A stretch of 20,195 nt of DNA. Source: a virus. The notes beneath the pieces are model-generated. The model worked only from the letters and a program-made list of their open reading frames with translations, was not told the origin of the DNA and ran no database searches. Location of the stretch: positions 1 to 20,195 of IMG/VR virus record IMGVR_UViG_3300027963_000410. The stretch is one strand, 5' to 3'. The position numbers and the translations under genes are program-made. Positions 1,683 to 19,989 of this stretch are shown piece after piece. Position 1 is the first letter of the stretch. Every line of letters begins with the position of its first letter.

Positions 1683-3620
1683 TTATTCCCCCTTTACCTT
1701 GCGACGGTTTATTCCAGTCACTGGGTCTTTTATGTATCCGGGGCTTGGTGGGTTTGCATTAGTTGCGGGAGCTGCTGGCGGCTTGGTTGGCTCAACAAGC
1801 ATCTTTCCACCAAACGACAGGTCGGCCAAATCTGAGTTGTACTTATCACGCATTTCTGCGTAGCGGTCAGAGTCTAAAAACTCGCCAGCCGTCATTTTTG
1901 AATTTTTAAATTCTTTTGCAACGCGACGATCAAACTGTGCGCGACGGGTCATCAAATCTGCCTTCATACGAATTGTTTCTGGCGTGTCTTGTGCATTGAT
2001 ACCAGCACTTCCCATCAACTGTTGCTCGTAATTGGAAACTGAACCCTTCATGTACTTAGTCTGCGCCAATTGCATTTGGGCTACATACATCAAAAACGTG
2101 CGGTACTTGGCCTGATCTGCTGCGCTTAATCCAGCATTTCGCATGACATTTTCAATCTCAGGTACGCCCACACGGAAGTTAGTTGTCCCAACACCGCCTT
2201 GAATTAGCATTGCAATTCCTGAAGAAATTTTGTCGTTATTCAAAATACCAGACATTTTTGAGGCATTGGGATCAGCGGCAAATTTTCTAAATTGATTAGC
2301 CAAGGTAATTGTGTCGTCTGCATCTTTACCGCGCTGAATAAAGTCTTTTTTGGTTGCAAATTCCTCTTCAAGTTCAGTCGATTGCGTTTTTTCTGCTTTT
2401 TGTTTTTCAAGCTCAAGTTCTTGTTTTGACTTTATGCGTGATGGTTCGCCAGCTTTACCCTCTGCTTTTTGAGGGCCCTCCACAACTCGCTTGGCCAAGT
2501 CGTAATAGGCTGGATCATTGTTTGCAGCCAACATGCTAAGTCTGGCCGCGGTACGAGCGTCAACTGAATAGGTGCCGGGATAACCGTACAACTGCACTTC
2601 TTCTGTTTTTCCAGTTGGGTACTGATAAAACTTACCAGTCGACAAGTCAAGCACGCCACCTTCTTTGTCTCGATAGCGCTTTTGCTCAATCTCCTGACCT
2701 TCTTTGATGAGGTCGCCGGGGGACTTTGACTTATCAAATCGGTTCAGCCTAACGTAATCACGGGCCGACATAAAGTTAGGGTTGGGTGGAGCAACTTGAA
2801 TGCCATCCACACCCTCAAAACCGGGCGGCTTGTCCCTAGTTGGCAAAGGCCCTTGAGTTACGACCTGCGGCGCAATTGTTTTTACTTCAGGCGCTGCTGC
2901 AGGGGCAGACGGCCTAGGCATGTTTTTAAGTCGATCTTCCCAAAAATTTTTCTCATTTATAAATTGTTCTTCTGAACCTCTACCACTTTCCATCCATTTT
3001 TTCTTTTGTTCTGGGTTGTTATAAGCGGCAACAATTCGACTCAAGTTGTCGTATTCTTCTTGCTTGCCTTGATCCGCTTTAGACGGAGCAGGCAATCCAC
3101 CGCCAGCAGGTGCGGCGAGCGCTCCTTGCGACAACGGTCCAGCGGAAGGTGCAACAGATGCTGCAGGTGCTGCGGGTGCGGGGGCGGCCTTAGGACCCGC
3201 TAAGGCGCCCGACAAAGGTCCAGCCACTGGGGCTGTTTTGGGGCCCGCTACAGGGCCTGTGGGGTTTAAATAATTAGACAGCTCTGTGTCGCGTGACTTT
3301 AAGCGCTGCAGCTCAAGGCCCTGACCAGCCACCGCAACCCTCTGCTGCGCAATTTCTTGTTCTCGTTTACTTTCAGCCTCTTGGGCCGCACCTACATTCT
3401 TTGCAACATTACCCAATGACTCGCCAAAGCTTCCCGTCTGGCCCGGCGTCAGGAACCCCTGCGCCATAGCCAGAAGCGTGGGATCGAACAGCCTGTTCTT
3501 GCGAGTGTCAAGAGACTCGTTAAGAAGCGTCAGCGCCTCTTGATAGCGCCTGTTCGCCTCTATCGCCTCGGGGTCGTCTCCCGGCAAGTAACTTGCTGAT
3601 GGTGTTTTTGGTTCGGCCAT
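1683..3620 (-). CDS. Large Pro/Ala-rich virion protein, probable ejection protein (645 aa)
   Basis: A TTG at 3644 gives a longer frame, but the ATG at 3620 lies one base after the previous stop and follows GGGGG, so it is preferred. Residues 1-100 are helical and include NRLFDPTLLAMAQGFLTPGQTGSFGESLGN, a pattern found in phage virion proteins. Residues about 110-180 are an Ala/Pro/Gly linker with repeated AGP. A charged middle part includes GGVLDLSTGKFYQYP. Residues about 400-600 are helical and contain NVMRNAGLSAADQAKYRTFLMYVAQ. The end is a Pro-rich linker and NRRKVKGE. No enzyme motif is seen. It sits between two other internal-protein candidates and is followed after one base by the GH73 gene. 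Confidence 0.7.
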   Translation of the reverse strand: MAEPKTPSASYLPGDDPEAIEANRRYQEALTLLNESLDTRKNRLFDPTLLAMAQGFLTPGQTGSFGESLGNVAKNVGAAQEAESKREQEIAQQRVAVAGQGLELQRLKSRDTELSNYLNPTGPVAGPKTAPVAGPLSGALAGPKAAPAPAAPAASVAPSAGPLSQGALAAPAGGGLPAPSKADQGKQEEYDNLSRIVAAYNNPEQKKKWMESGRGSEEQFINEKNFWEDRLKNMPRPSAPAAAPEVKTIAPQVVTQGPLPTRDKPPGFEGVDGIQVAPPNPNFMSARDYVRLNRFDKSKSPGDLIKEGQEIEQKRYRDKEGGVLDLSTGKFYQYPTGKTEEVQLYGYPGTYSVDARTAARLSMLAANNDPAYYDLAKRVVEGPQKAEGKAGEPSRIKSKQELELEKQKAEKTQSTELEEEFATKKDFIQRGKDADDTITLANQFRKFAADPNASKMSGILNNDKISSGIAMLIQGGVGTTNFRVGVPEIENVMRNAGLSAADQAKYRTFLMYVAQMQLAQTKYMKGSVSNYEQQLMGSAGINAQDTPETIRMKADLMTRRAQFDRRVAKEFKNSKMTAGEFLDSDRYAEMRDKYNSDLADLSFGGKMLVEPTKPPAAPATNANPPSPGYIKDPVTGINRRKVKGE

Positions 3621-3621
3621 T

Positions 3622-4653
3622 TTATGACCCCCAATCTGTTGCAACTATGTTTCCGTTTCGATCGTAGTATTGGTTGGTTGCCGTATCAAAGAAAAGTTGC
3701 GTCCCTGCTGCGTTGCCGCCAACAAATTCATTTGGGTCTACTTGGATGTTGCCTACACTAGAAGCGGCGCCTTTAAGATATGAGGCGAGGTCTTTGCCCA
3801 AACCCGCAATAGTTTCAATGCCTTTGCCGCCAGCAACACTACCAACAGCAGACATAGTCCCCAAAATATTTGCCAAATCTGACGCTTGATACGAACCAGC
3901 TTTTGGACCCACAAATGTCTGTGTTTGGTTCTGAGGCATAGTGTACCCGCGCATGAGGCCAGAGGCGGTTGTAGCAGTCTTAAGAGGTTGATCCAACAAG
4001 CTCTGCTCGTAAGCTTGACGCTCTGCGCCAGCTTTGGTCAATGCGCCGACTCCAGTCAAACCTGACTCAAGCTCTTGCTGCGCAAGCTTGCCCTGCGTAC
4101 CAGCGGTTAAGTTCTGCAGTTGAGCCTCGTCTAAGGCGCCTTTTAGAGCCTCACTGTAGCCTTTTGAAAGAGCGCCGTACTGCTGACCAGTCAAACCAGC
4201 CTGAACGTCAGCCATGGACTGCCCAAGGGCGTTTGCGTAGCGTTGGCCACCAAGGCCGCCAGTACCTACAAAACCAGCCTTCATGCTTGGGAGTAGGTTC
4301 CTTTGCACGTTCTGTTGAGACAGTCGCTCCATCTCATCCACTACGTTGCTGGTGTAAGGATTCATTAAGGCTTGAATGCGCTCAGGGGTAATGCCCTGCG
4401 CGGCCTGAGCAGCGGTGCTCTGTGCGGCTTGCAGCTGTGGCTGATAGGAAGTTGTTGCGGCGGGCAGGTTAGAGTAGCCCATGGTCTGTAGTGGGTCATA
4501 TCCCGCAACGCTTTGTTGTGGAGTTTTACCCATGGCAGTCTGGCCAGCCTGAGACAGACCAGACAGGTAATTGGTGTAGTACGACGGCGCGTTGTCTTGC
4601 GTGGTCGTCGTCTGTTTAATATCTGGTAACGGTGCGCCTTGGGTGAATGCCAT
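3622..4653 (-). CDS. Probable internal/ejection virion protein (343 aa)
   Basis: A Gln/Ala/Gly-rich protein. The central segment is most telling: ALMNPYTSNVVDEMERL, then QRNLLPSMKAGFVGTGGLGG, then GQSMADVQAGLTGQQY. This NPYT...V and Gly-rich loop pattern is common to uncharacterised virion proteins of tailed phages. Residues from about 80 to 220 are helical. The C terminus ends in TNQYYDRNGNIVATDWGS, a YD-repeat-like beta segment. TAGGAG overlaps the stop of the giant gene, and the ATG follows that stop by two bases. An ejection or internal core role is inferred from the neighbours; there is no catalytic motif. Confidence 0.72.
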   Translation of the reverse strand: MAFTQGAPLPDIKQTTTTQDNAPSYYTNYLSGLSQAGQTAMGKTPQQSVAGYDPLQTMGYSNLPAATTSYQPQLQAAQSTAAQAAQGITPERIQALMNPYTSNVVDEMERLSQQNVQRNLLPSMKAGFVGTGGLGGQRYANALGQSMADVQAGLTGQQYGALSKGYSEALKGALDEAQLQNLTAGTQGKLAQQELESGLTGVGALTKAGAERQAYEQSLLDQPLKTATTASGLMRGYTMPQNQTQTFVGPKAGSYQASDLANILGTMSAVGSVAGGKGIETIAGLGKDLASYLKGAASSVGNIQVDPNEFVGGNAAGTQLFFDTATNQYYDRNGNIVATDWGS

Positions 4654-4655
4654 GG

Positions 4656-7600
4656 TTATCTCCTAGCCTTGCTTTTTTTCAGGTAATCCAACGGCGACTT
4701 TTTTGCCGGAGGAGGAAGGTCCTTCGGCTTGGCCGATCTATGATATGCCCTGATGGAATGCATCATTTCGTATAGTTTATCGCTTCCTGCCTTAGTTGAG
4801 CCGTTTCCGAGAGCCGCAACCACGTCAGCAGGGAAAACAAACTCACCATCGGCAAGCATGGCGGGTATGTCGTCAGACTGACCATCGCCGGGTCCCGTCA
4901 CCGCGTCACCTTTTCTGAAGTCTAAGCGAGCCTTGCCAGAGTGGTTGATTACATTCAACCCACCCCCAGCGTATTTGCCGTATCGCGTACTGCCGCCGCC
5001 AGCCATCATGGGAACGGCAAGGCCGCCCTCTTTAGAGTATAGCAAATCACCACCAGAAGAGCCACCTAAAAGGTCGTTCATTTCTGGCTGCTGGCCATAA
5101 GCAAAATAATCAGAACCTTGCTGTGAAGGTGTTAGCGCATCTTGCATAGGTGCTCCCTGTTGATTTTGTTGCTGAGGTTGTTGAGGCTTGGGCACATAGG
5201 TGTTCTCTTTCACCATTTTTAGGTATTGATCAAGAGGTCCTTCAAATTTTGCCTCACCCGATGTTTTAAGTCCAATGTCTTTAGTTCCGGGTATAGATTC
5301 ATCCATAGCACCAGCAGCAAGCGCTGGGGTGACCATGGCGGCAGCATTTGCAAGGTTTTGTGAAATTCCTTGTTGTGCTTTGGTTGCTCGAGCCGCTTTG
5401 GCGGCCGCTTCTGCTTTTGCTTTTTCTGCCGCCTGCTGCGCTTGAAGTTGGGTAAGGTTAGTCTGCAACCCAGCCACACCCGTGCCAATTTCTTTAATAG
5501 CTGTGTTTGTGGCGGTCTGGTAGTCCTGACCTTGCTTCATCAACTCATCAACACGATTATTAAATTGAGTTTGCATATCAACGATGTTGGTTTTTACATC
5601 AGTGATTTGCTGTGTTGTGGTTTGTGAAACATTGTTAATTGCGGTAGCAAGGTCAACACCTTGTTTAGCTTGAGAAGCCACCAACTCTTTTTGGGCCGCA
5701 GTCAAAGCATCAAATTTGGCTTGAGTGCTTGTTTCTAACCCAGTAATTTGCTGCTGGGTTTGTTGTTGACCAGCCGTGATTTGACCTTGCACGCCTGAAA
5801 TGGCTGTGTTCAGTGCATCCGTTTGAGACGCGCCTTGAGCTACAAGCTGGTTGTAAAGGGATTGTTGACCTTGCGACAGTTGATTGTACTGTTGAGCTTG
5901 TGTTTGACTTAATCCATTAATTTGTTGTTGGGTTGCAGCTTGCGAATTTGTGATTGCGGTTTGAAGATTTTCACCCTGCTGGATGCGAGCGTTAACCTCC
6001 GCCTTTTGAGCGGCCGTTAGCGCAGCATATTGAGCCTGAACATCGGCAAGGTTGGTTTGCGTCCCAGTTTCTGTTGTGCTCGTCGTTCCTGTTGTGCCTG
6101 TTGTTCCTGTTGTTGCACCAGCAGCACCAGTGCTTTGTGTTGCACCAGCAGTGTCAGTAGCGTTAGTTGTTGCCGTTCCAGTATTGGCGGCGGTTTGTGT
6201 TGCGCCAGAAGTGTCAGTATTGCCAACAACATTAGTAGCACCAGTAGTATTTGCGGCGCCAGTAGTGTTAGTGGCGCCAGCAGTGTCGGTAGCACTAGTA
6301 GTACCAACAGTGTTAGTAGCACCGACATTATCAATGGCTCCAGTAGTGCTAGTGGTCCCAGTAGTACCAGTAATACCAGTAATACCAGTAATACCAGTGG
6401 TATCAGTAGTACCAGTAATACCAGTTGTATCGGTGATTCCTGTTGTTCCTGTTGTATCAGTGGCTCCTGTAGTTCCAGCAGTGTCAGTAGTACCAGTATT
6501 TTCAGTTATATCAGCGGCTCCTGTAGTATCGGCTGCTGTCGTATCTCCACCTGTAACGTCTACATTTACAACATCTCTATTATCTACATCTACAGGAGTA
6601 AGAGGTGTTAAATCTTTTGCCGCATTTTCTTGCCTTATTCTCTCCGCCTCAGATATTGGTGCTTGATAATCTTTCCCTGTAACTTTTTTGTATTCAGCTT
6701 GCAAGTTGGAGTCGTTTGGAGTTTGTAATAACGCCTCCTCCAACGCCTTTGAATAATTAGCGTCCATTGCAACACCAGCAAAACCATAAGTATTGGTGTA
6801 CTCGTTAAAAGCTCGAGCTAAGTTTGGATTCTTGGCAAGTGCAATTTGAAACTTTGGATCGTTAGCAGCAAATGCGGAGCCAAGTCTACTTGTGCCTGTA
6901 GAAGCATCGGTTGAAGTTGCGGGCAATGCCTGTGCGGTAGAAGACTGTGCAAAAACATCTTGCATGGCTGCATTTAAAGCAGTCCGCTCGTCTGATGTCA
7001 AGTTGGACTGATTTAGCTCGTTCATTAAAGATGATCTTGCATCTTGAGATTTAGCAAATGCAGTATTAAAAATTGAATTTTCGTCAAAGCTAACTTGTTT
7101 TCCGCCAGCGTCTTTAAAGTCAATTTTGTTTTGATCTACGCCAGCAGCGTTAGTAAACGCTTGTTGGCCGTCTTGCATAAACTTACCATCTTTGGTCAAC
7201 GTCATGCCGTTGTTCAATACCCAATTTCCATCAGCGTCAGTCTCTGTAGCCTTGATTGCGCCGCTGTTTAAGGCGTCAATCGTGGCGTTGCGAGTTGCCA
7301 CCTCAGCCAATGCTTTGGTGTAGTTCTCATTAGCAGTGTCTGCCGCTGCTTTTGTTTTAGACCAAGCCGCGTACTTGGTTTCGTACTCTTTAGAGGCCGC
7401 CATTGCCTTTGCAGCTAGGTTAGTTCCGTCTGCATTTGGCGCCTCAATGTCGCTTTTAATTGCTTGTAACTCTGCAACTTTTTGAGGTAATAATTTGTTT
7501 TCTGACTCAATATAGTCAATTAAAGGTTTATTATTTTCATATAGTTTTTGAGCAGCCAAGCTATTATCTTTAATTCTTTTTTCTTCGTCGTCTAATACAA

Positions 7601-8681
7601 CCACGTGGTCTTTAATGCCGTTTATAAGCATTTGCATGTATTCGTTTTTGCCCCAAAAAGGCACTGGAGCATAGCGATTATAATAGTCCACCCATACATC
7701 ATAAGATGCTTTCCAAGTATCATATTTTTCCTTGGCTGTATTTATTACAGAACCTAATTGATCATATTGAGTTTTAAACGGGGTATATTTTTCTGTAATT
7801 GCTTTTTGTAAATCAGAGTCTCTTTGAATAATAGACTGACGCAAGTTTTCCGCCTCAACCGCCTTGCTATCAAGCTCTGCTTTGTAAGTAGTAAATTTAT
7901 CCTGAGCTTTTTGAGCGGCCTCTGTATCCGTTGTTAGGTTTACATAAGCGTCTTTGGCCATGCGAGACACTTCAGAGCCAGCCATGTTGACGCCAGCGTA
8001 TGCAATATAGTTACCTACGGTTTGAGCTGGGTCGCCCTTTCCAGACACCAGCGTGTTAAGTGCTGTGCTGGCTGCGCCTTTCATAACATTTAAGGCTGTT
8101 GGACTAAATCCCCAATTGGGGTCTTTGTTGACGGAGTTGAAGTAGCTGTCTGTAGAAGAGTAAATAAGGCCAGAAGTAAATCCAGAAGACACTCCCTGAG
8201 CAACACTCCTGCCTGTTAAGGCGGCGTTGATACCACCGATTACGGAGGAATTCAATGCGGCGGATGAGGCCTTTGCAACCATCACAGCCTGATCGGGTGA
8301 TAGGTTGAAGTTTTCCATAGCCCAGTCTGTTATGTCACCAGAGGGCATATTTACGGCATAGTTTTTAATGTCTGCGCCAAGTTGTGTGCTGCTCATAAGC
8401 TCTGATGATGCATAGGACAGGGCGGCACTCTTAGCCATATCGCCTATGTTTCCACCTTGAACTCCTGCAATAACTGCGGCTGTTACGTAAGGAGGAACAC
8501 CAAAACTAGCCCCAACCACCTGAGCCACAACAGGAAGTGGATTTTTTAAGATGGCCTGCACAGTATTAAAGGTCGTATTTACAGTATTAACGGCCGCGTT
8601 GAAAGTATTCGTTATAAGATCAGAAGCGCTCCCAAGAGGGTTTCCTATATCAATACCAGTAGTTTGTTTAACCCATCCCAT
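4656..8681 (-). CDS. Giant low-complexity virion protein with helical repeats (1341 aa)
   Basis: Probably an internal or ejected virion protein. Residues 1-245 are Ala/Gly/Ser-rich with a hydrophobic stretch near 48-75. Residues 250-475 form long charged helices (coiled coil). Residues about 705-875 are a Thr-Gly-x low-complexity tract. Residues about 880-1085 contain four imperfect repeats of 40-60 residues with the pattern ALTAAQK...QQG..L.TAI...TQQQI. A Lys/Ala helix and a Gln/Pro-rich linker follow. Residues 1258-1312 ([20 protein letters not shown] and a following LYEMMHSIR) match a C-terminal domain shared by many phage virion proteins. The tail is basic. AGGGG lies six bases before the ATG. 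Placement with three other large Ala/Gln-rich genes supports a DNA-ejection role. A tape-measure-like role is possible, but no other long-tail genes are seen. Confidence 0.75.
6066..6560 (-). repeat. Thr-Gly coding minisatellite
   Basis: About 165 codons encode almost only Thr, Gly, Ala, Asp, Asn, Ile and Val in a TGx/TTx rhythm. The nine-base unit ACCAGTAAT (plus strand) is perfectly repeated three times at 6366-6392 and continues degenerately. Unit sizes are multiples of three, so slippage would keep the frame. Codons for Thr and Gly vary across the tract, so purifying selection on the protein pattern is as likely as recent slippage. Confidence 0.8.
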
Positions 8682-9160
8682 TATTCACCCCTTGGTTCAC
8701 CAGTGGTGAACGTAAACATTTTAGAGGTTGAATCATAATTAGATTCTGCACCTTCAAACTTACCTTTTTTAAGAGCAAGCTTTAATGCTTTTAAAGCCTC
8801 GGTTGTTGTGTGCGCAAAAAGTTTATCAAAGCCCATTTTTCTTGCTGATTGAATAAACTCAATAATGTTGTTGACGTAGTTTTCTCCAGTATCGCCGTTA
8901 TAACCACGAATAAACCCTGTTCTTTCTGGAAGAGCGGCAATTGTGAATAAGGTGTTCCCAGCCCTTACTCTAAGAAGTTTTGGGTCACTGTACTCTTTAA
9001 GCATAATGGTGTACGACAAGCGCTCAGGCGTGATATTTGCTTTTTTAGCCGCAGCCTTGCACATCTCTAGACCTTGCTTGTACTCATGCGCAGCCACCAA
9101 AAATATGTCATTAGGCTGAAGCATGTGCTTTTTAGAGCTGACTGGATGAATGCCTATCAT
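8681..9160 (-). CDS. Unknown phage protein, alpha/beta (159 aa)
   Basis: I do not recognise it firmly. It starts [20 protein letters not shown] and has a helix [17 protein letters not shown] probable beta core follows ([17 protein letters not shown]), then the helical half [28 protein letters not shown] and a short C-terminal beta hairpin. The order beta-helix-beta recalls GNAT-like folds, but no acetyl-CoA loop is visible, so this is only a hint. TTGGAG eight bases upstream supports the ATG at 9160. It overlaps the ferritin-like gene (ATGA) and the giant gene (TAATG), so it is made with both. Confidence 0.65.
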
Positions 9161-9840
9161 GCTGGTATCTCCAAGTAACGGCTATCGTCCACTTTGTTAG
9201 GATGAAACTTTGGCAAATAAATTTTCAGCATGGGAACAAATACCTTGGTTGTCATGTGCCACGACCAATGAGCAAGATCAGTCCAGTCTTTCAGGCGCTT
9301 AAAGCTGACGCCTTTGAGTGTGTAGCCCACAATGAATTTGATGACGTAGGCTTGATTTTGCCTTGCAATTGCCCGTAAGTCAGCATCTGAGTAACCTAAA
9401 CTGCGCCAAAGGTCGATAGCAAGGTCCTTGTGTCCAATCTCTTCGCGTGAATGCCAAGCAAACAATTTGTGCTCGCGCCCAGAACAATTTCCATGCAGGT
9501 CAAGGATCATTCGGCCAATGCAGGCCGCAAGGTGCTCAATAGAAACCATAGCCCCAAGCCAAAGCTTGTTGCCGGGGCGGCGGTGAATGATGGAGGCCTT
9601 GTCAAACTCAAAGTTCGCCTCTTGAGTCAATCCAGCGCGGGCATTGTAGGCTTCGTGTGCGCTTGCGTGGGCCAGCTCCTCCTTGATGAATTGATCAAGG
9701 CGTTGCGATAGTTCTTTGTCATGCAGGCTCGCTAGGTGGTGCTTTGCAACAGACACAAAAGCCTTCTCCCACGCAGGGAAAAGAATGCTCAAACCGTTAT
9801 AAAAACGGGTATAGACCTGTGAATCATTGCACCAGTTCAT
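9157..9840 (-). CDS. Ferritin-like predicted metal-dependent hydrolase (PF10118 / COG3687 type)
   Basis: 227 residues, helical. The family pattern is clear: LSILFPAWEKAF near the N terminus, FIKEELAHASAHEAYN, SIEHLAA, and WHSREEIGHKDLAIDLW. The likely metal ligands follow the ferritin-like order E25, E55-x2-H58, E102, E134-x2-H137, with H62 and H130 nearby, so a di-metal centre is expected. Members of this family are annotated as metal-dependent hydrolases or di-iron proteins, and their substrates are unknown to me. All four ligand positions are intact. It is encoded within the tail and virion operon, joined to both neighbours by ATGA overlaps, and has no clear Shine-Dalgarno sequence of its own. 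It could be a cargo enzyme of the virion, a membrane-lipid modifier or an auxiliary metabolic gene; the sequence does not decide. Confidence 0.82.
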   Translation of the reverse strand: MNWCNDSQVYTRFYNGLSILFPAWEKAFVSVAKHHLASLHDKELSQRLDQFIKEELAHASAHEAYNARAGLTQEANFEFDKASIIHRRPGNKLWLGAMVSIEHLAACIGRMILDLHGNCSGREHKLFAWHSREEIGHKDLAIDLWRSLGYSDADLRAIARQNQAYVIKFIVGYTLKGVSFKRLKDWTDLAHWSWHMTTKVFVPMLKIYLPKFHPNKVDDSRYLEIPA

Positions 9841-10097
9841 GTTGTTTGCGTCGCTGGGTTAACTGCCGCCACCATAGCCTCCGCCCAATAGTACCAATCT
9901 TCGTACTGATCGGTTCTTGGCGTTGCCTCATTAGAAAATACGTCGATTGCGTTTAGGCCATTTCCCCAAACTCTCCAATCCGTGTGCTGCGTTGGTATTT
10001 CCAACTGTTGAGCCGCATACAGCTCGCACATAAGCGACGCCCACGACTCAAACGTGTGATAGCGCGGGTCATAAACTTGAGCAGGATTAAGGGCCAT
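9837..10097 (-). CDS. Small Trp/Tyr-rich phage protein (86 aa)
   Basis: The longest frame begins at a TTG at 10115. The ATG at 10097, overlapping the nozzle gene by 11 bases with GAGG just upstream, is preferred. The product begins MALNPAQVYDPRYHTFESWA and contains DWRVWGNGL and DWYYWAEAMV, a repeated W-x2/3-W pattern. Similar small proteins follow nozzle genes in podoviruses, but no function is known to me. The stop overlaps the next start as ATGA. It may be a minor tail or assembly protein. Confidence 0.72.
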   Translation of the reverse strand: MALNPAQVYDPRYHTFESWASLMCELYAAQQLEIPTQHTDWRVWGNGLNAIDVFSNEATPRTDQYEDWYYWAEAMVAAVNPATQTT

Positions 10098-12294
10098 ATG
10101 GCCTCGCGTCGCCAATTTCGGCGCTTAATAAGAGCTTACCGAGCTGATAGTCACCACCAGCAGTGTTTGAAATAAACTTAAGCCTCAACTCTCTTCGCTG
10201 CTCTCGCATGTCAACTTTGCCAGTATTGGGTCCAAAAACGTACGGGTCAGACTCTTTATCGGCGCCTTGAGCAAATGGAGGGCCAGTCACTATTAAGGAC
10301 ATGTCACCAGACTGGACAAAGTCAGGCTCCACGCGCTCTAAACGCAGCCATCTGTTTTGGCCATCCGCGGTAGGCTGTGATGGGCCTCCAGAAACCAATC
10401 CTAGGTCGTTAGTCTCAAAGTAGCTCTCAATGGCACTGACGTTCTGCCCGTTGATGGCGTCGGTTCCAATCTCATGTTGGAGGATTTCAATTCTGTTCTC
10501 TGGCGTGGAGAATGTAAGAGAAGCAGTAGCCGTTACGGTAGCCGCGGCAGACATCTGAATGCCCTGTGCATACAAAGTTGCAACAGGGATAGAAAACCCA
10601 GCACCAGTTCCACCCAGCTGAGTATTGGACGCGATCAGAGCATCTCCCACTTGGTAGCCAGCGCCTCTAGATGTTACGGTAATGGCTGTTACAGCACCCC
10701 CAGCAACGGTCACGGTAGCCTTTGCGCCGCTTCCGCTGCCACCAGTGAGGGTGACGTTTGTGTAGGTGCCGTTAACGTATCCTGCGCCTCCAGTAATAGC
10801 TCCCAATGTCTTGATGCTGCTAGTCTTTATGGCGGTAACGTAAGTGTTTACAGGAATGCCTGACCCAGAAATGATTAGCCCCAAAACCACTTGGGTGTTG
10901 TATGTGTCTAAGTACAAGAATTGACTTGCGCTCACCGTGTTAAATGAGTCGGTAAAAACAACTTCCGCCGGGGATGTATCCCAATTAGCCTGCACAGGGA
11001 AACGGAAAACTTGCGAGAAGTAACCCGCAGAACGGCGAGCACCTAAAGCTTGGCCAGCGTCGTACCAAGTGTTTTCTCGAGTGTTGTAGACAATAGCGTC
11101 AGTACACTCAGTTGCGTCACCTCTAGGATAGAACCACCAAACCTCACCAAAACGCGGGACTTTGCTGACCCAAACTTTTTGCCTTTGAGCATAGTTCAGG
11201 TTGTCAAAGAAGTAGTTCTGGTTCATGTTGTTAGGAATTTCCTTCACAACACCGTTGTACATCAAGAAACGGTCTACTCCGCACCAGTAGTAAACACCGT
11301 CATACTCAATTGCGGATTGGCTAGACAGAATGGAAGACTGCGAGCTGATGATGTCGTAGCGCCAGTATTGCGGGGGTGTTCCAGCTCCGCCGATATAGGA
11401 CACGCGAATTAAGCTATCAAGGCTCCAAAACAGCCCAGAAGGCGCGTTTGATCCACCCCTGACGGGTAACCCCTGCACAATCTTTCCTGTGGCCACGTTA
11501 ACTGCATTGGTGTCTGCGGAGACCCAGTCTTGAGCGTTGCCAGCGGAGCAGTTCTGAATCAGCCCATTGTTGCCGTAAACAAAGACGTAAGGGTGAAGCG
11601 ACACCACCCCACCAGATACGCTAATGTTGTTGCTGAAGGTGGCCGCAACCACTCCAGCAGAGACCGCGTTGGACAAAGTCACGGTGGTGGTAGAGACCGA
11701 AAGTACAGTAGTGTTGGCTGGGATGCTGGTTCCCGTAACGGTTTGGCCAGCTCCAATCAATAGGTTTGAGGCCGCAATTGTCACCACGGCAGTGCCAGTA
11801 GAGGTAATGGTGTCCATAAACGTGCCAATCTGTGACATGTTTGTACCATTAATGTCGCCAATCAAGACAGGCGTGTTGGCGTCGTTGTCAATTGATGCAA
11901 GGTTTTGACCCGGATGTGCAAGCAGCGACTGCACCCCAGCTCCAGCAACGTCATAGAAACCATCAAACTGCCAAAGGTTAAGGTTGGAGGCAGTAAAGTT
12001 TGACAGCGTAAAGTTGCTAACCCCAGCTCCAATGCCGTTATCGTCAATAGTCAGCACTTGCAGACCATTGTTATAACCACTGAAGATGTAATTAAATGCG
12101 TTCTGAGCGTTAACCCAAATGCCCCTTGATGGGCCTGTTAGTTGATCGGAAATGACGCGATACCCGCCCATTTTTCTAGGGCGCCCGCGCTGAAACCTTA
12201 CCCAACGACCATCATTGTAGAACTGCTTATCAAAGACGGTTCCGTCCCGCTGGACGCCGGGCATGGTGTCAAGTGCAAAGACTTTTGCGGTCAT
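10087..12294 (-). CDS. Tail nozzle / tail tubular B-like protein with inserted modules
   Basis: 735 residues. The opening RDGTVFDKQFYNDGRWVRFQRGRPRKMGGY and the later segments YWRYDIISSQSSI, EYDGVYYWCGVDRFLMYNG and VWWFYPRG...ENTWYDAG match the beta-propeller nozzle of podoviruses (T7 gp12-like and SU10-like). It would form the distal tail end through which DNA exits. Two inserts stand out: about residues 155-225, with VTGTSIPANTTV, and about 460-580, with ISGSGIPVNTYV followed by the Gly-rich GGAGY...GGSGSGA...SRGAGYQVGD module. These look like surface-exposed adhesive additions. GGAG lies seven bases before the ATG. The start overlaps the gene before as TAATG. Confidence 0.83.
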   Translation of the reverse strand: MTAKVFALDTMPGVQRDGTVFDKQFYNDGRWVRFQRGRPRKMGGYRVISDQLTGPSRGIWVNAQNAFNYIFSGYNNGLQVLTIDDNGIGAGVSNFTLSNFTASNLNLWQFDGFYDVAGAGVQSLLAHPGQNLASIDNDANTPVLIGDINGTNMSQIGTFMDTITSTGTAVVTIAASNLLIGAGQTVTGTSIPANTTVLSVSTTTVTLSNAVSAGVVAATFSNNISVSGGVVSLHPYVFVYGNNGLIQNCSAGNAQDWVSADTNAVNVATGKIVQGLPVRGGSNAPSGLFWSLDSLIRVSYIGGAGTPPQYWRYDIISSQSSILSSQSAIEYDGVYYWCGVDRFLMYNGVVKEIPNNMNQNYFFDNLNYAQRQKVWVSKVPRFGEVWWFYPRGDATECTDAIVYNTRENTWYDAGQALGARRSAGYFSQVFRFPVQANWDTSPAEVVFTDSFNTVSASQFLYLDTYNTQVVLGLIISGSGIPVNTYVTAIKTSSIKTLGAITGGAGYVNGTYTNVTLTGGSGSGAKATVTVAGGAVTAITVTSRGAGYQVGDALIASNTQLGGTGAGFSIPVATLYAQGIQMSAAATVTATASLTFSTPENRIEILQHEIGTDAINGQNVSAIESYFETNDLGLVSGGPSQPTADGQNRWLRLERVEPDFVQSGDMSLIVTGPPFAQGADKESDPYVFGPNTGKVDMREQRRELRLKFISNTAGGDYQLGKLLLSAEIGDARPYGP

Positions 12295-13532
12295 TAGAAC
12301 ACTCCGCCAGAGATACCGCCCGTAAAGGTTCCCGTTCCAGAAATTGTGAGACCAGAAGAGGACAGGCCAAACAACTTAACGCCAAGGATGGCCATACCCA
12401 ATTCACCTGAAGTTGGCCTATATATACCAGTTGAATTTTCAGAAGCAAAGTTAAGAGACGGCGCCGCTACGGTTCCGTTGACCAATGATACATTCAAGGC
12501 ACCCGCAGCGATTGTGGAGGCGTTTAATAGGTTTACAGAGTCGCAAAGCAGGATTACCTGCTCACCAGCAGGTACAGTTGCAGTGCCGCCCCCAGAGCCT
12601 GTGGTAAAGGTAATCTGATAGCCCGCACCCGTACCATTAGTCTGGTTGGTGATGTAGTAAACCTGAACGGTTTGCGGAAGGGTAACCGTTACGTTACCAC
12701 TTAAGGTCCCTGTGTACTTCTGTACTACGTTTGAGGCCTCAGCAGAGGTTAAGGTATAGCTGCCAGATGTAACAGCCTTGGTAAGTTGCGTAAAATTGAA
12801 CTGAGTACTGCGTCCAAGGCCGACGGTGTAGAAAGCCACGCCAGAGCAGCAGATAAAGCAGGAATCAGAAGGCTGCAGAGAGATAGAAGCGGCGCCATTG
12901 ATTAAATCTCCACCAGAGGGGGCCACGGTCAAAGTGCCAGTCCCGCCATTACGCAACATCATAAACCAATTGTTACCTAACGTAACGGCTGATGTAAGAG
13001 TCAAGGTTCCTGCGCCATCATTCCAAACGTAGTAAGAGGCGCGGTCAGAATCAATTGCAGTATAGGCGGAAGAGAACGTGGTGACGTTGTGCGCCGCGTT
13101 TAGGGTGTTGGTGATGGCCTTTAAGCCGTACCCAGCCAAGGCGCCAGCGTCTACGTTAGATGAGCCCACACCAAAGGCAATGTTGCCCCACGTTCCCGCG
13201 GTAGTAGCGTTGGTGGTGATGTAGATGTACCGTGCGGCGCTAGGGGCCACGCTTGCAATTGAGTTGCCGTCGTAGTCTTTAATGGTAACGGTGTTGGCGC
13301 CGATGTTTCGTATTAGAGCGTCCGAGCCTACAGAGGCCTGATTTGCAGGCGGCATGGACAGGGACAGGCCAGCAGTGGTGGCCGTAACGTCCATAATACG
13401 CGCAGCGGCGTTGTCGGTTGCGCTGCCGTTGATTGGCCAAGACAGGGTCGTGTTAACAGAAATTGAGACGGACCTATAGGACACGTCAGTCGGCTGTATC
13501 ACCTGACCCGTAAACGGACTGGTAAAGCTCAT
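12294..13532 (-). CDS. Phage tail protein, fibre-like beta-rich (412 aa)
   Basis: The opening FTSPFTGQVIQPTDVSYR and the next segment, LSWPINGSA, resemble a family of tail proteins encoded between adaptor and nozzle in uncultured podoviruses. The body is Gly/Thr/Ser/Val-rich with repeated patterns such as ALIRNIGANTVTI, WFMMLRNGGTGTLTV and YITNQTNGTGAGYQI, each probably one jelly-roll or beta-helix module. Near the C terminus SENSTGIYRP is a motif shared with phage fibres, but the protein ends soon afterwards in GGISGGVF with no S74 chaperone. Probably a short tail fibre or tail decoration attached to the adaptor and nozzle. GAGG lies eight bases before the ATG, and the start and stop overlap both neighbours as TAATG. 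Confidence 0.75.
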   Translation of the reverse strand: MSFTSPFTGQVIQPTDVSYRSVSISVNTTLSWPINGSATDNAAARIMDVTATTAGLSLSMPPANQASVGSDALIRNIGANTVTIKDYDGNSIASVAPSAARYIYITTNATTAGTWGNIAFGVGSSNVDAGALAGYGLKAITNTLNAAHNVTTFSSAYTAIDSDRASYYVWNDGAGTLTLTSAVTLGNNWFMMLRNGGTGTLTVAPSGGDLINGAASISLQPSDSCFICCSGVAFYTVGLGRSTQFNFTQLTKAVTSGSYTLTSAEASNVVQKYTGTLSGNVTVTLPQTVQVYYITNQTNGTGAGYQITFTTGSGGGTATVPAGEQVILLCDSVNLLNASTIAAGALNVSLVNGTVAAPSLNFASENSTGIYRPTSGELGMAILGVKLFGLSSSGLTISGTGTFTGGISGGVF

Positions 13533-14167
13533 TATGAATCCCTCACAATAGCCTGACGATCAGCCGCACGAGTGACGTTTTCTGTCTTCAGGACTTCGAT
13601 AATTTGGCTGTAATTCTGCTGCCACATAGGCATGCGCTCGTCGTTCTTAAGGAACGGCATGGCCTGCAACAGAGTCCCGTACAGCAGCGCCTGTGGGGCG
13701 TACTGAGTAAACCAATTGGACTGATTTGCGGAGTCCAAGGGCTGAACCCTTTGGTAGTACAGGACCTCATAAGAGTAGTCGTCGTCTGGCGTAGGCCCTA
13801 CAAGCCAGTGCTCATAGTCATAATCGCAGAAGTACAGAGGGGCGTCCTCCAAAGCTGGGTCTGGCCAGTACTCACGGATGTACTCGTATGTGCGCAGGAG
13901 AATGGGGCGGCGCTTTCCAGCCACGGTGACGTTCATGGACACAGTCTTGCGCCAACGTGCAGGCTTAGGGATGACGTTCTCGCCCTTGACTAGGGCACTT
14001 TCAACCACCTGAAGGTTGCCCAAGAACTTAATTTCGGACGCAATGATCTGTTCCGCAAGCATGATAAACTGCGGAATCTTTTCGAGCGTCTGCGTGTCAG
14101 TGCGCTCCAAATACGTTTGGATGTCATTGACCAGCGAGTCATAGGTCATCACGGCTGCAACCGTCAC
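13532..14167 (-). CDS. Head-tail adaptor / tail tubular A-like protein
   Basis: 211 residues. The opening MTYDSLVNDIQTYLERTD, the middle RTYEYIREYWPDP and WLVGPTPDDDYSYEV, and the end QYAPQALLYGTLLQAMPFLKND match the pattern of podovirus adaptor proteins (SU10 adaptor and T7 gp11-like). These sit between the portal and the nozzle and bind the tail fibres. It starts at a GTG with a good Shine-Dalgarno site; an ATG at 14149 is the alternative start. The stop overlaps the next gene as TAATG. The tail protein and nozzle encoded next support the role. Confidence 0.82.
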   Translation of the reverse strand: MTVAAVMTYDSLVNDIQTYLERTDTQTLEKIPQFIMLAEQIIASEIKFLGNLQVVESALVKGENVIPKPARWRKTVSMNVTVAGKRRPILLRTYEYIREYWPDPALEDAPLYFCDYDYEHWLVGPTPDDDYSYEVLYYQRVQPLDSANQSNWFTQYAPQALLYGTLLQAMPFLKNDERMPMWQQNYSQIIEVLKTENVTRAADRQAIVRDS

Positions 14168-16614: not shown

Positions 16615-19600
16615 TTAAACTCGATAATTTCCTGTCATACCGTTAATGTCTCCAGCGGTATCCATTGGTATATTTGTCTCGTTACCACCGCCTGTTGGCC
16701 CTTGTCTCAAAATAATTATGGCGGTTCCTTGGTCTTGTATTGCCAAGGGATAATTTAATGCTGTTAGTGCAATATTGTTAAAATAGCAAGTGTAAGCACT
16801 TGGATTAACTTGAGAATTATTTGAAGTAAATGGCAACCCAGTAATTCTCATATTGCCTGTGCCTGTATGTGCAGTCCATCGCAATGTTAATTGAATAAAC
16901 ACTCTATCACCAATTTTTGTATATGCACCAGCTTGGGCGGTATATGTACCAGTTCCTGCCGATGTTGTTCCCTCAAGGACGGGAGTAAAAGTCCCCTCCT
17001 CATAGTCATCTAGCGTGTTGGCGTCAGCAGATGCTATTTGAGTTGCGGGAAACTTAACCCCAGAACCTTCCGATGCTGGCCCAGTTCCACCAACGCTAAT
17101 GCCAGCATTAAACTGAGTGCCGCCAGCAGAGTTGATAATCTGCCGTGGATTCCCATCCCCATCAGACAGCACGATGTAGTTGCTTGCTGTGCGGATGTCT
17201 AGGCCACCGTTGTTACCTGTGTAGTTGCCAATAATTACATTATTACTTCCTGTTGTAACAGAATAACCGCAAGTGTTTCCGTTTGCAGTTGACCTACCTC
17301 CAACAAATGTATTGCTAGAACCAGATGTGATACTGTATCCGGCCTGTCTTCCAATCATTGTGTTGCTGTTGCCAGAAGTACAGGAGGCCAAGGCTTCATA
17401 CCCCACAGCAGTTTGATAGTTTTGAGTTGTATTTGAATACAGCGCCCGATACCCGACAGCGGTGTTGTCAATTCCTGTTGTGTTTGCGTAAGCCGCTTGA
17501 TAACCAACAGCATTATTGCTTGAGCCTGTGGTGTTGGAGCGAAGTGCTTGATAGCCTATTGCTACAATATTGCTAGCTGTATTAGGATACGCTGCTTCAT
17601 AGCCAACTGCAACAACACCACTCATTGATGCTCCAAGGCCACAGGCTTGATGACCAACAGCGGTATTACCAGTGCTTGTTGTAGTGGAGCCTAGCGCAGC
17701 ATACCCAACACCAGTATTTTCACCACCTGTGGTGTTGCTACCAACCGCACCATACCCAACACCAAGATTATTTGAACCTGTGGTTGTAAATCGTAAAGCA
17801 TTCGACCCAAATGCAGTACAGTAACTGCCTGTTGTAATAACAGGCCCCGCATAAGAGCCAGCGATAGTATTTTGTTGCCCAGTTGTATTTGCAGCTAAGG
17901 CTGAATAACCTAAAGCAATATTATCACTTCCAGTAGTGTTGGCTCCAAGCGCTGCCATACCTATAGCAGTATTTTGGTTTCCAGTAGTATTTGCATCTAA
18001 CGCCTGATATCCTACAGCAACTAAACCTGTTCCTGTAGTATTACTATACCCAGCCTGATAACCTACAGCAGTGTTGCTAGATGCTGTGGTGTTGGCTTGG
18101 AGGGCCGAAGTTCCCAAAGCGGTGTTGTAGTTGCCCGTGGTGTTGCTTCTCAAAGCAGCAGTATCTGACCCCGGTAAGCCACCACCAACAGCCACGTTTG
18201 AGCTACCGCTTGTGTTTGCGGCAAGGGCTTGATGGCCAATTGCTGTGTTAATTTGACCAGTTGTCAGGGCAGCTATCGTCCCATAGCCAACGCCCACGTT
18301 CCAGCGCCCTGTTGAGCCAGAAGCCCCGATTAGCGCGGTATTACCAATCGCAATGTTTACATCGCCTGTAGTTCGGTATGCGGCTTGATAACCTATAGCA
18401 GTACTGTCAGAGGCTGTGGTGTTGCTGAAAAGTGCGCTATGACCTAATGCCGTATTTTGCGTTCCTGTGGTATTAAGAAGGATTGCGTTATTGCCAACTG
18501 CCAAGTTGTTGTTAGCAGTGGTATTTGATGCAAGAGCTTCTACGCCAACTGCGAGGTTACCGCTACCAGTGGTGTTAGCGCCAAGAACCGCATTTCCCAA
18601 ATTTCCACCAATACTTCCAATGCCAATATTATTAGCACCAGTAGTATTGGCACGCATTGCGCCATAACCGATACCGATGTTTCTGTTTGCCGTGGTATTT
18701 GCTTGCAATGCCGCACCACCAATAGCAATGTTTTCACCGCCAGTTGTATTGCTTTGCATAGGCCCAGTCCAGTTGCCGGGGCCGTCATCACTACCAAGTG
18801 CCACGTTGGCAGAACCTGTTGTATTGGAAAACAACGCCAAAGAACCAACAGCCAAATTACCAACTCCAGTTGTTGTAGCTTCCATTGCCCGAAAGCCAAC
18901 AGCCGTGTTTCTAGCATTGTTGGAGGGCGCAAATGCTTTGAGTGCTTGATAACCCACAGCCACGCTGTTAGACCCAGTGACGTTGGTATAAAGAGCCTGA
19001 TAACCCAAAACAGTGTTTGATGCGCCTGTCGTATTTGAGTAAGCCGCCTGATAACCTACAGCAGTGTTGTTGCTGGCGGTGGTGTTAAGCGCCAATGCTC
19101 CATCACCCATCGCGGTGTTACTTGCTCCAGTTGTGTTAGTGGTTAATGCTGTATATCCAATGGCAGTATTTGATGCGCTCGTCGTATTTCCAGCTAATGC
19201 GCTTAAACCAACAGCCGTATTTCTACCGCCAGTAGTATTTGCAACCAAAGCCGATGAACCGACTGCGGTGTTCCCCGTACCAGAAGTATTGGAGTTCAAT
19301 GTTCCATATCCCAGCGCAGTCAAGGTGGTTCCAGTATTTGCAGAAGCCAATGCGAGATTTCCCACCGCAGTATTGCTAGACACAGCACCTGCACCACGTC
19401 CTACTGTGAGGCCGTAAACAGTCAGGTCAGTGCCGCTGTATAGCAAGTTGGCAGAAGATGTAAGGTTGCCGCCAGTGGTGGTGTAGACCACTCGACCAGT
19501 TGTTAGGGAAGAATCGGCAAAGTCGTTGACAGTCAGCGTAGTGCCGTCAAATGTCATGTTGGCAGAACCCGTAAGGACTTTACTGCCATTCAAGTATTGA

Positions 19601-19989
19601 ACTTGGTTGGCTGTGCCGCCGGAAAGGGTTACGTTGCCCGAAGCAGAAACAGTAGTAAACGCACCAGTATTAGCAGTAGTAGCACCCACAGTACCGTTCA
19701 ATGGGCCAGCAAAGCCCGAAGAGGTCAATACTGTGCCGCTCCATGTCAGAGAAGCAGAACCAGCCAATACGCCAGCGTTGTTGAATTGGACTTGGGTAGT
19801 AGAACCACCGATAGAACCAGTGGCTTTAGAGGCCATAGTCTGAACAACACCGGAGCTGTCCTTGAAAAATAATTTTCCATCATTGGTGTTCATCGCAAGC
19901 TCACCAGCCACCAAGTTGGCGGCGAGTGGCACGTTAGAAGCGGTAGCGCTATAGTAGAGGGATACGGGCGTAAATCCTGTGGCGGCCAT
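16615..19989 (-). CDS. Giant phage tail fibre with about 40 YadA-type head repeats
   Basis: 1124 residues; probably a trimeric host-contact fibre. Residues 1-55 contain LVAGELAMNTNDGKLFF, a usual start of phage fibres. Residues about 67-195 hold three repeats of a Q-x3-N/T...GS/SSA-x3-GT-x-LT unit. From residue 206 to about 928 there are some 40 copies of a ~17-residue unit of the form NTAVGxxALxxNTTGxx, the left-handed beta-roll repeat of YadA-like adhesin heads and many phage fibres. Four copies are lengthened to about 24 residues. Residues 994-1000 read DDYEEGT, which opens a C-terminal beta domain found at the end of many phage fibres. I see no peptidase S74 self-cleaving chaperone motif. 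The start is set by AAGGAG eight bases upstream. Receptor specificity is not visible. An adhesin of bacterial origin is less likely, because there is no signal peptide or membrane anchor and the neighbours are phage genes. Confidence 0.88.
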   Translation of the reverse strand: MAATGFTPVSLYYSATASNVPLAANLVAGELAMNTNDGKLFFKDSSGVVQTMASKATGSIGGSTTQVQFNNAGVLAGSASLTWSGTVLTSSGFAGPLNGTVGATTANTGAFTTVSASGNVTLSGGTANQVQYLNGSKVLTGSANMTFDGTTLTVNDFADSSLTTGRVVYTTTGGNLTSSANLLYSGTDLTVYGLTVGRGAGAVSSNTAVGNLALASANTGTTLTALGYGTLNSNTSGTGNTAVGSSALVANTTGGRNTAVGLSALAGNTTSASNTAIGYTALTTNTTGASNTAMGDGALALNTTASNNTAVGYQAAYSNTTGASNTVLGYQALYTNVTGSNSVAVGYQALKAFAPSNNARNTAVGFRAMEATTTGVGNLAVGSLALFSNTTGSANVALGSDDGPGNWTGPMQSNTTGGENIAIGGAALQANTTANRNIGIGYGAMRANTTGANNIGIGSIGGNLGNAVLGANTTGSGNLAVGVEALASNTTANNNLAVGNNAILLNTTGTQNTALGHSALFSNTTASDSTAIGYQAAYRTTGDVNIAIGNTALIGASGSTGRWNVGVGYGTIAALTTGQINTAIGHQALAANTSGSSNVAVGGGLPGSDTAALRSNTTGNYNTALGTSALQANTTASSNTAVGYQAGYSNTTGTGLVAVGYQALDANTTGNQNTAIGMAALGANTTGSDNIALGYSALAANTTGQQNTIAGSYAGPVITTGSYCTAFGSNALRFTTTGSNNLGVGYGAVGSNTTGGENTGVGYAALGSTTTSTGNTAVGHQACGLGASMSGVVAVGYEAAYPNTASNIVAIGYQALRSNTTGSSNNAVGYQAAYANTTGIDNTAVGYRALYSNTTQNYQTAVGYEALASCTSGNSNTMIGRQAGYSITSGSSNTFVGGRSTANGNTCGYSVTTGSNNVIIGNYTGNNGGLDIRTASNYIVLSDGDGNPRQIINSAGGTQFNAGISVGGTGPASEGSGVKFPATQIASADANTLDDYEEGTFTPVLEGTTSAGTGTYTAQAGAYTKIGDRVFIQLTLRWTAHTGTGNMRITGLPFTSNNSQVNPSAYTCYFNNIALTALNYPLAIQDQGTAIIILRQGPTGGGNETNIPMDTAGDINGMTGNYRV
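17205..19374 (-). repeat. Array of about 40 YadA-head-type 51-bp repeats
   Basis: The coding sequence repeats a ~17-codon unit about 40 times with strong drift at DNA level but a conserved protein pattern: N-T/I/L-A-V/I-G, then A-L, then N-T-T-G. Four units (about numbers 12, 15, 23 and 40) carry insertions of about seven residues. Copies are diverged, so this is an old structural repeat rather than a recent tandem expansion. Length changes in multiples of the unit would keep the frame. Confidence 0.85.

Follow-up and report, generated by a model that had tools for sequence, protein, structure and literature searches.

A predicted diiron enzyme of family PF10118 encoded in an optional cassette beside a GNAT-fold gene in a phage virion operon

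The window analysed here, which is the whole 20,195-base record of an IMG/VR virus, carries on its minus strand at positions 9157–9840 a gene for a PF10118 protein of the diiron (ferritin-like) type. The protein falls in a branch, confined to phages, of a metal-enzyme family that is still uncharacterised; it retains an intact active site, and its gene occupies a precise exchange slot beside a gene that corresponds in position to T7 gene 13. Comparison of related loci shows that, in the late operon of short-tailed freshwater phages, the PF10118 gene is an optional cassette that is exchanged between near-identical phages. In sister phages the slot is taken by an acyl carrier-like protein (ACP) and a ketoacyl synthase (KAS), and this repeated choice between a predicted diiron enzyme and an ACP–KAS pair leads to a testable idea for the role of the gp13-like GNAT protein in particle assembly or DNA delivery.

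The predicted protein is 227 residues long, and no coding sequence is present on the plus strand at 9157–9840. The PF10118 (Metal_hydrol) profile matches it with E = 1.1e-35 and 124 bits over profile positions 16–247 of 247, far above the curated cut-off of 33.2 bits. The original prediction, made from the sequence alone, had assigned the protein to this family, and the profile search bears this out. Likewise, the ligand order that it described (E25, E55xxH58, E102, E134xxH137) and the segments LFPAWEKAF and WHSREEIGHK were all verified in the open reading frame, and the presence of a PF10118-type gene at this position is confirmed. The ATGA stop/start overlaps that it reported at both ends of the gene are also real; they lie at 9837–9840, with the upstream gene, and at 9157–9160, with the downstream one (both minus strand). 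No model in PHROGs or NCBIfam matched the 227-residue protein, and nothing relevant was found in the literature on COG3687 or PF10118. With a GC content of 0.488, the same as the window mean, the gene shows no sign of recent import.

The six ligands (E25, E55, H58, E102, E134 and H137) are kept in 100% of 62 phage and 53 bacterial relatives, so that the ligand pattern is not due to chance. Conservation is complete or almost complete at H62, H103, W129 and H130 as well, across phage and bacterial relatives alike, and E133 is also common to the phage clade and the bacterial PF10118/COG3687 proteins. The two groups differ, however, in that the phage proteins have a shorter N-terminus and consistent changes near the site, with W24 for G, E54 for Q and W145 for Y, MVSI at 98–101 in place of the bacterial TAAx, and R110 among the changed pocket residues. 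Judged from these residues, the phage clade may combine a conserved metal site with an altered substrate pocket. Moreover, ten pairs of PF10118 genes gave dN/dS values of 0.04–0.13, which is indicative of strong purifying selection.

An AlphaFold2 model of the PF10118 protein (pLDDT 92.1, pTM 0.89) is all helical. The ligands sit on four long helices, with E25 on helix 8–36, E55 and H58 on helix 42–69, E102 on helix 92–116, and E134 and H137 on helix 122–147, all at corresponding distances from the loops connecting the paired helices. The nearest solved folds identified by Foldseek were TenA, aldehyde-deformylating oxygenase, R2lox, PaaA/C, COQ7 and CADD, with TM-scores up to 0.59; the E-values were weak, none being below 0.2, and heme-oxygenase-like folds scored as well as ferritin-like ones. 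Aldehyde-deformylating oxygenase, R2lox, PaaA and COQ7 share with the phage protein the E, ExxH, E, ExxH order and, going by the model, probably the four-helix bundle (TM 0.5–0.59), whereas PDB sequence searches with the protein and with its profile gave nothing meaningful and matched no solved structure. A fold search of BFVD was also weak, its top match being a phage rubrerythrin-like protein (E 0.75). The model is consistent with a diiron four-helix oxidase, which is the likely identity of the protein; the choice of a ferritin-like over a heme-oxygenase-like superfamily would follow from the ferritin-type pattern of the ligands. The name ‘hydrolase’ borne by PF10118 is itself a prediction, and the ligand set points instead to a diiron oxidase, so that the protein is probably not a hydrolase.

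Scans of IMG/VR identified 79 loci encoding PF10118 relatives with 37–99% identity; the peptide-pattern scans pick up close members, and other phage PF10118 clades could exist. Throughout, counts refer to contigs de-duplicated by identical protein (by identical DNA in the GNAT survey) and are not corrected for relatedness, and Fisher p values based on them serve for description. One further copy lies on a phage-like contig of this group (L017, CAMDXR010000008.1) binned in a Limnohabitans MAG, which also has a chromosomal PF10118 gene of its own; this single MAG-binned contig gives a weak hint of a freshwater Burkholderiales host. Apart from that contig, no phage-type PF10118 was found in about 920 Pseudomonadota genomes, comprising 151 genomes of the Comamonadaceae, searched with the Pfam model, followed by two samples of 369 and 399 with some overlap, and the best bacterial match reached about 99 bits as against 416. 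Chromosomal relatives were present in 53 of the 151 Comamonadaceae genomes, about a third. The phage members score 100–135 bits, compared with 224–265 for the majority of bacterial proteins from the family sampled. In phylogenetic trees the phage proteins form a single clade, separate from the bacterial ones, with support of 100/100; the length of its stem depends on model and sample (2.8 and 1.2), and only separateness is claimed. The bacterial PF10118 genes have mixed neighbours, including a thioesterase, a GMC oxidoreductase and a methyltransferase; AraC and MalT-type regulators recur among them, but no single pathway does. The only matches in INPHARED were to ‘Acinetobacter phage MD-2021a’ and were discarded as phage evidence; these contigs, filed there as phage and up to 254 kb long, look like bacterial assembly. 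No integrase was found in 12 contigs of 54–58 kb, which thus give no indication that these phages are temperate.

All genes of the surrounding operon lie on the minus strand. Upstream of the PF10118 gene are genes for an SU10-type adaptor protein (13532–14167; PF24175, E = 1.8e-24), a tail-fibre-like structural protein of 412 residues (12294–13532; phrog_12796, E = 2e-4) and a nozzle-type virion protein of 735 residues (10087–12294; phrog_3287, E = 1e-26), similar records of the last being annotated as phage stabilization protein. Between the nozzle and PF10118 genes is a small conserved gene, here termed s92 (9837–10115), which encodes a putative protein of 86/92 residues with its likely start ATG at 10097. 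On the other side the PF10118 gene is followed by a gene for a 159-residue GNAT-fold protein (8681–9160) and, directly after this, by one for a large protein of 1341 residues (4656–8681), which gave no match in a Pfam search and is by its position a candidate internal or ejection protein. Two candidate internal virion proteins, of 343 (3622–4653) and 653 (1683–3644) residues, are assigned from position and synteny. They are followed by a candidate virion-associated lytic protein of 519 residues with an N-terminal glucosaminidase domain (122–1681; PF01832, E = 1.1e-12). The original prediction had placed the PF10118 gene between a tail gene and virion genes. Its location in a nozzle/ejection operon holds, but the immediate neighbours are different, since the gene directly upstream is s92, which separates it from the nozzle gene, and the gene directly downstream encodes the GNAT-fold protein, whose virion status is unproven.

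The GNAT-fold protein has no Pfam or PHROG match. Its structural model (pLDDT 95.8) matched GNAT proteins in all 50 of the PDB matches listed, the best with E = 1.4e-3 and the TM-scores being about 0.4–0.5. The usual acyl-CoA motif, Q/RxxGxG/A, is absent from the protein encoded in the window; of 31 phage GNAT-like proteins, 29 lack it. In its position between the nozzle gene and the internal virion genes, as well as in size, the gene resembles T7 gene 13, which lies between the nozzle gene (gp12) and those for gp14–16, whereas no sequence relation to T7 gp13 was detectable (hhalign probability 0.1). In cobaviruses GNAT domains are reported at the gp13 place, and equivalence to gp13 and a role in virion morphogenesis have been suggested (PMC6775973); this suggested role was the only one found in the literature on gp13-like GNAT proteins. 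A GNAT domain at the same place has also been reported for a Pseudomonas phage (PMC10142737). The GNAT-fold family, with members of 119–167 residues, is widespread in the phages studied here, yet is without a Pfam or PHROG model.

The GNAT gene comes directly after PF10118 in each of the 57 distinct phage loci that extend far enough downstream, including lineages in which the nozzle is only about 27–35% identical to that of the window, and the ATGA overlap at the PF10118 stop is present in 38 of these 57 relatives. Among 43 loci that have a similar nozzle but no PF10118, 18 also contain the GNAT gene, so that the link between the two genes is partly positional. Many phages carry a GNAT-fold gene with neither PF10118 nor the KAS/ACP cassette.

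Among loci with a nozzle similar to that of the window, 62 are informative, and 13 of these carry the PF10118 gene, which is thus optional. In an independent survey of 51 loci with the same GNAT type, the gene directly upstream was PF10118 in 25, s92 (the empty state) in 23 and another gene in three. The pair L009 and L060 are about 98% identical through the nozzle and s92 genes; beyond these, PF10118 is the one gene that L009 has in addition, and the difference begins at the s92 stop codon. The overlap at 9837–9840 in the window corresponds to this exact border of the exchangeable cassette in relatives. Elsewhere PF10118 has been replaced in place by alleles of about 50% identity. L142 and L180, for instance, share about 90% identity along 15.4 kb, which drops to 53–62% across the body of PF10118, with a second, shorter dip inside the large downstream gene, and the identity between L081 and L092 falls at PF10118 in the same way. 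L025 and L186 have unrelated upstream DNA and nozzles with 35% amino acid identity, but share a block, 93% identical, that extends from the start codon of PF10118 to include the whole GNAT gene. Genes for GIY-YIG-like and HNH-like endonucleases, judged by eye, lie in or beside the slot (L021:4809–5357; L083:12650–13303), and such endonucleases might drive exchange there.

These exchanges bear directly on the view, taken in the original prediction, that the ATGA overlaps ‘lock’ the gene in place and show a virion role. The ATGA junction is retained with or without the PF10118 gene, which is optional and is swapped alone; the overlaps are thus a by-product of cassette exchange and no proof of virion function, and close gene overlap within a virion operon is, taken alone, no evidence of such a function. 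The fixed place in the operon does fit late expression, as well as a link to the GNAT-fold neighbour. As to whether homologues lie beside nozzle genes in other phages, the place in the nozzle/ejection operon proved to be conserved across divergent phages.

A second cassette occupies the same slot in sister phages. In one complete phage genome on deposit (MW202545.1) a gene for a ketoacyl synthase occupies the slot, and a scan for this enzyme gave 51 loci, of which 44 are distinct. Examples of the cassette are found in L342–L392 (such as L371:3555–4963) and at L018:10252–12072. PF10118 was found in none of the 44. The nozzle gene is within the locus in 41 of them, a small protein with a D-S-L/M-D motif is encoded just before the KAS in 42, and the GNAT gene follows directly in 39 of the 40 informative loci. 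The KAS has Pfam domains, and its Cys130, His273 and His306 are invariant (numbered by the first alignment row). A profile of 13 members of the small protein matches acyl carrier proteins of the PDB almost exclusively (best E 0.0024) and the Ser of the DSL/DSM motif is invariant in these members; single-sequence Pfam matches stay below the cut-off. Genes of 372–397 codons upstream of PF10118 in other lineages were considered as KAS candidates and rejected, being structural-like. Roseobacter prophages are known to carry acpP-fabF-fabG fatty-acid genes (PMC8224337). The cassette described here likewise combines an ACP-like protein with a ketoacyl synthase on a phage; it differs in having no fabG and in sitting in the nozzle–GNAT slot of apparently virulent phages. 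The presence of KAS/ACP and PF10118 in one slot could also reflect a mere preference for an insertion site.

The explanation favoured here, which is put forward tentatively, is that a diiron oxidase of the phage clade takes part in acyl chemistry, is coupled to its GNAT neighbour and is made during particle assembly. From sequence and model, the PF10118 protein would be an active O2-dependent diiron oxidase or oxygenase, and its substrate would be hydrophobic or of acyl type, whether free, lipid-bound or thioester-bound. Its gene would be expressed late, as particles are assembled. More tentatively, the product may serve the GNAT-fold protein, and the latter may bind an acyl group, or transfer one, on a virion or ejection protein or on a host target; in sister phages the same step would be supplied by the ACP and KAS from the same slot. 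A precedent is ApxIC/HlyC, a GNAT-fold acyltransferase that takes acyl-ACP, is without CoA-binding elements and acylates pore-forming proteins (PMC8339906); the parallel with the phage GNAT protein is tentative and one of analogy, not homology. A more specific version, which seems unlikely, is a small acyl-chain pathway within the structural operon, in which the GNAT protein at the gp13 position would acylate an ejection (channel) protein in the manner of HlyC/ApxIC and the slot, with either ACP and KAS or PF10118, would supply or tailor the acyl group. If true, this would mean lipidation of phage ejection proteins and would give a function to gp13-like genes.

The slot can also be seen as an insertion hot spot of the late operon that holds an auxiliary metabolic gene, one that alters host lipid or small-molecule metabolism and is unlinked to GNAT or virion. 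The optional presence of PF10118 and its in-place allele swaps would fit such a gene, as would its chromosomal relatives in Comamonadaceae and the endonucleases and structural genes found in the slot elsewhere. This explanation is possible but doubtful, because PF10118 lies directly upstream of GNAT in every one of the 57 loci, even those with divergent nozzles, and the two genes moved as one block in L025/L186. Replacement of PF10118 alone between phages about 90% identical in DNA (L142/L180 and L081/L092) is what might be expected of alleles exchanged in an arms race, that is, of a counter-defence or superinfection-exclusion factor. Strong purifying selection within alleles and the late-operon position make this improbable, and no defence-linked homologue was present in the libraries used. 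About as improbable is the view of the original prediction, that of a packaged virion enzyme ejected with the DNA and acting on the host envelope; in every lineage the gene does lie with those for the nozzle and the presumed ejection proteins, as this view would have it, but it is missing from close relatives whose structural genes are nearly the same (L009 versus L060) and no packaging signal is seen in the protein.

The ferritin-type ligand order would also be compatible with oxygen detoxification or iron storage, as in ferritin, rubrerythrin or Mn-catalase, and gut phages (‘Gratiaviridae’) do carry Dps and Mn-catalase of the diiron-carboxylate superfamily (PMC8008677). Those are phage-borne members of the same superfamily, but of families other than PF10118, to which the present protein belongs. 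Moreover, its nearest solved folds are substrate-oxidising enzymes, and the conserved H62, H103, W129 and H130 suggest a specific substrate pocket. Detoxification of oxygen species, which had also been proposed for the gene, has no specific support and is extremely improbable. Acyl chemistry is preferred to it because acyl thioesters are the substrates on which ketoacyl synthases and ACPs act; the ACP–KAS cassette lends indirect support to the acyl or lipid side of the earlier suggestion of lipid chemistry.

Several structural proteins of the window have further features. Nozzle residues ∼460–590 form an inserted domain like baseplate or fibre segments (several PHROGs), and the length of the nozzle in relatives varies from ∼540 to 912 residues. 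The 1341-residue protein has a Thr-Gly-rich low-complexity stretch at window positions ∼6050–6650, and its relatives range from ∼1,200 to 2,300 residues. Finally, positions 16615–19989 encode a protein of 1124 residues, to which few relatives align full-length, with many NTAVGxxAL/NTTGxxN repeats like those of a repetitive tail-fibre or adhesin stalk.
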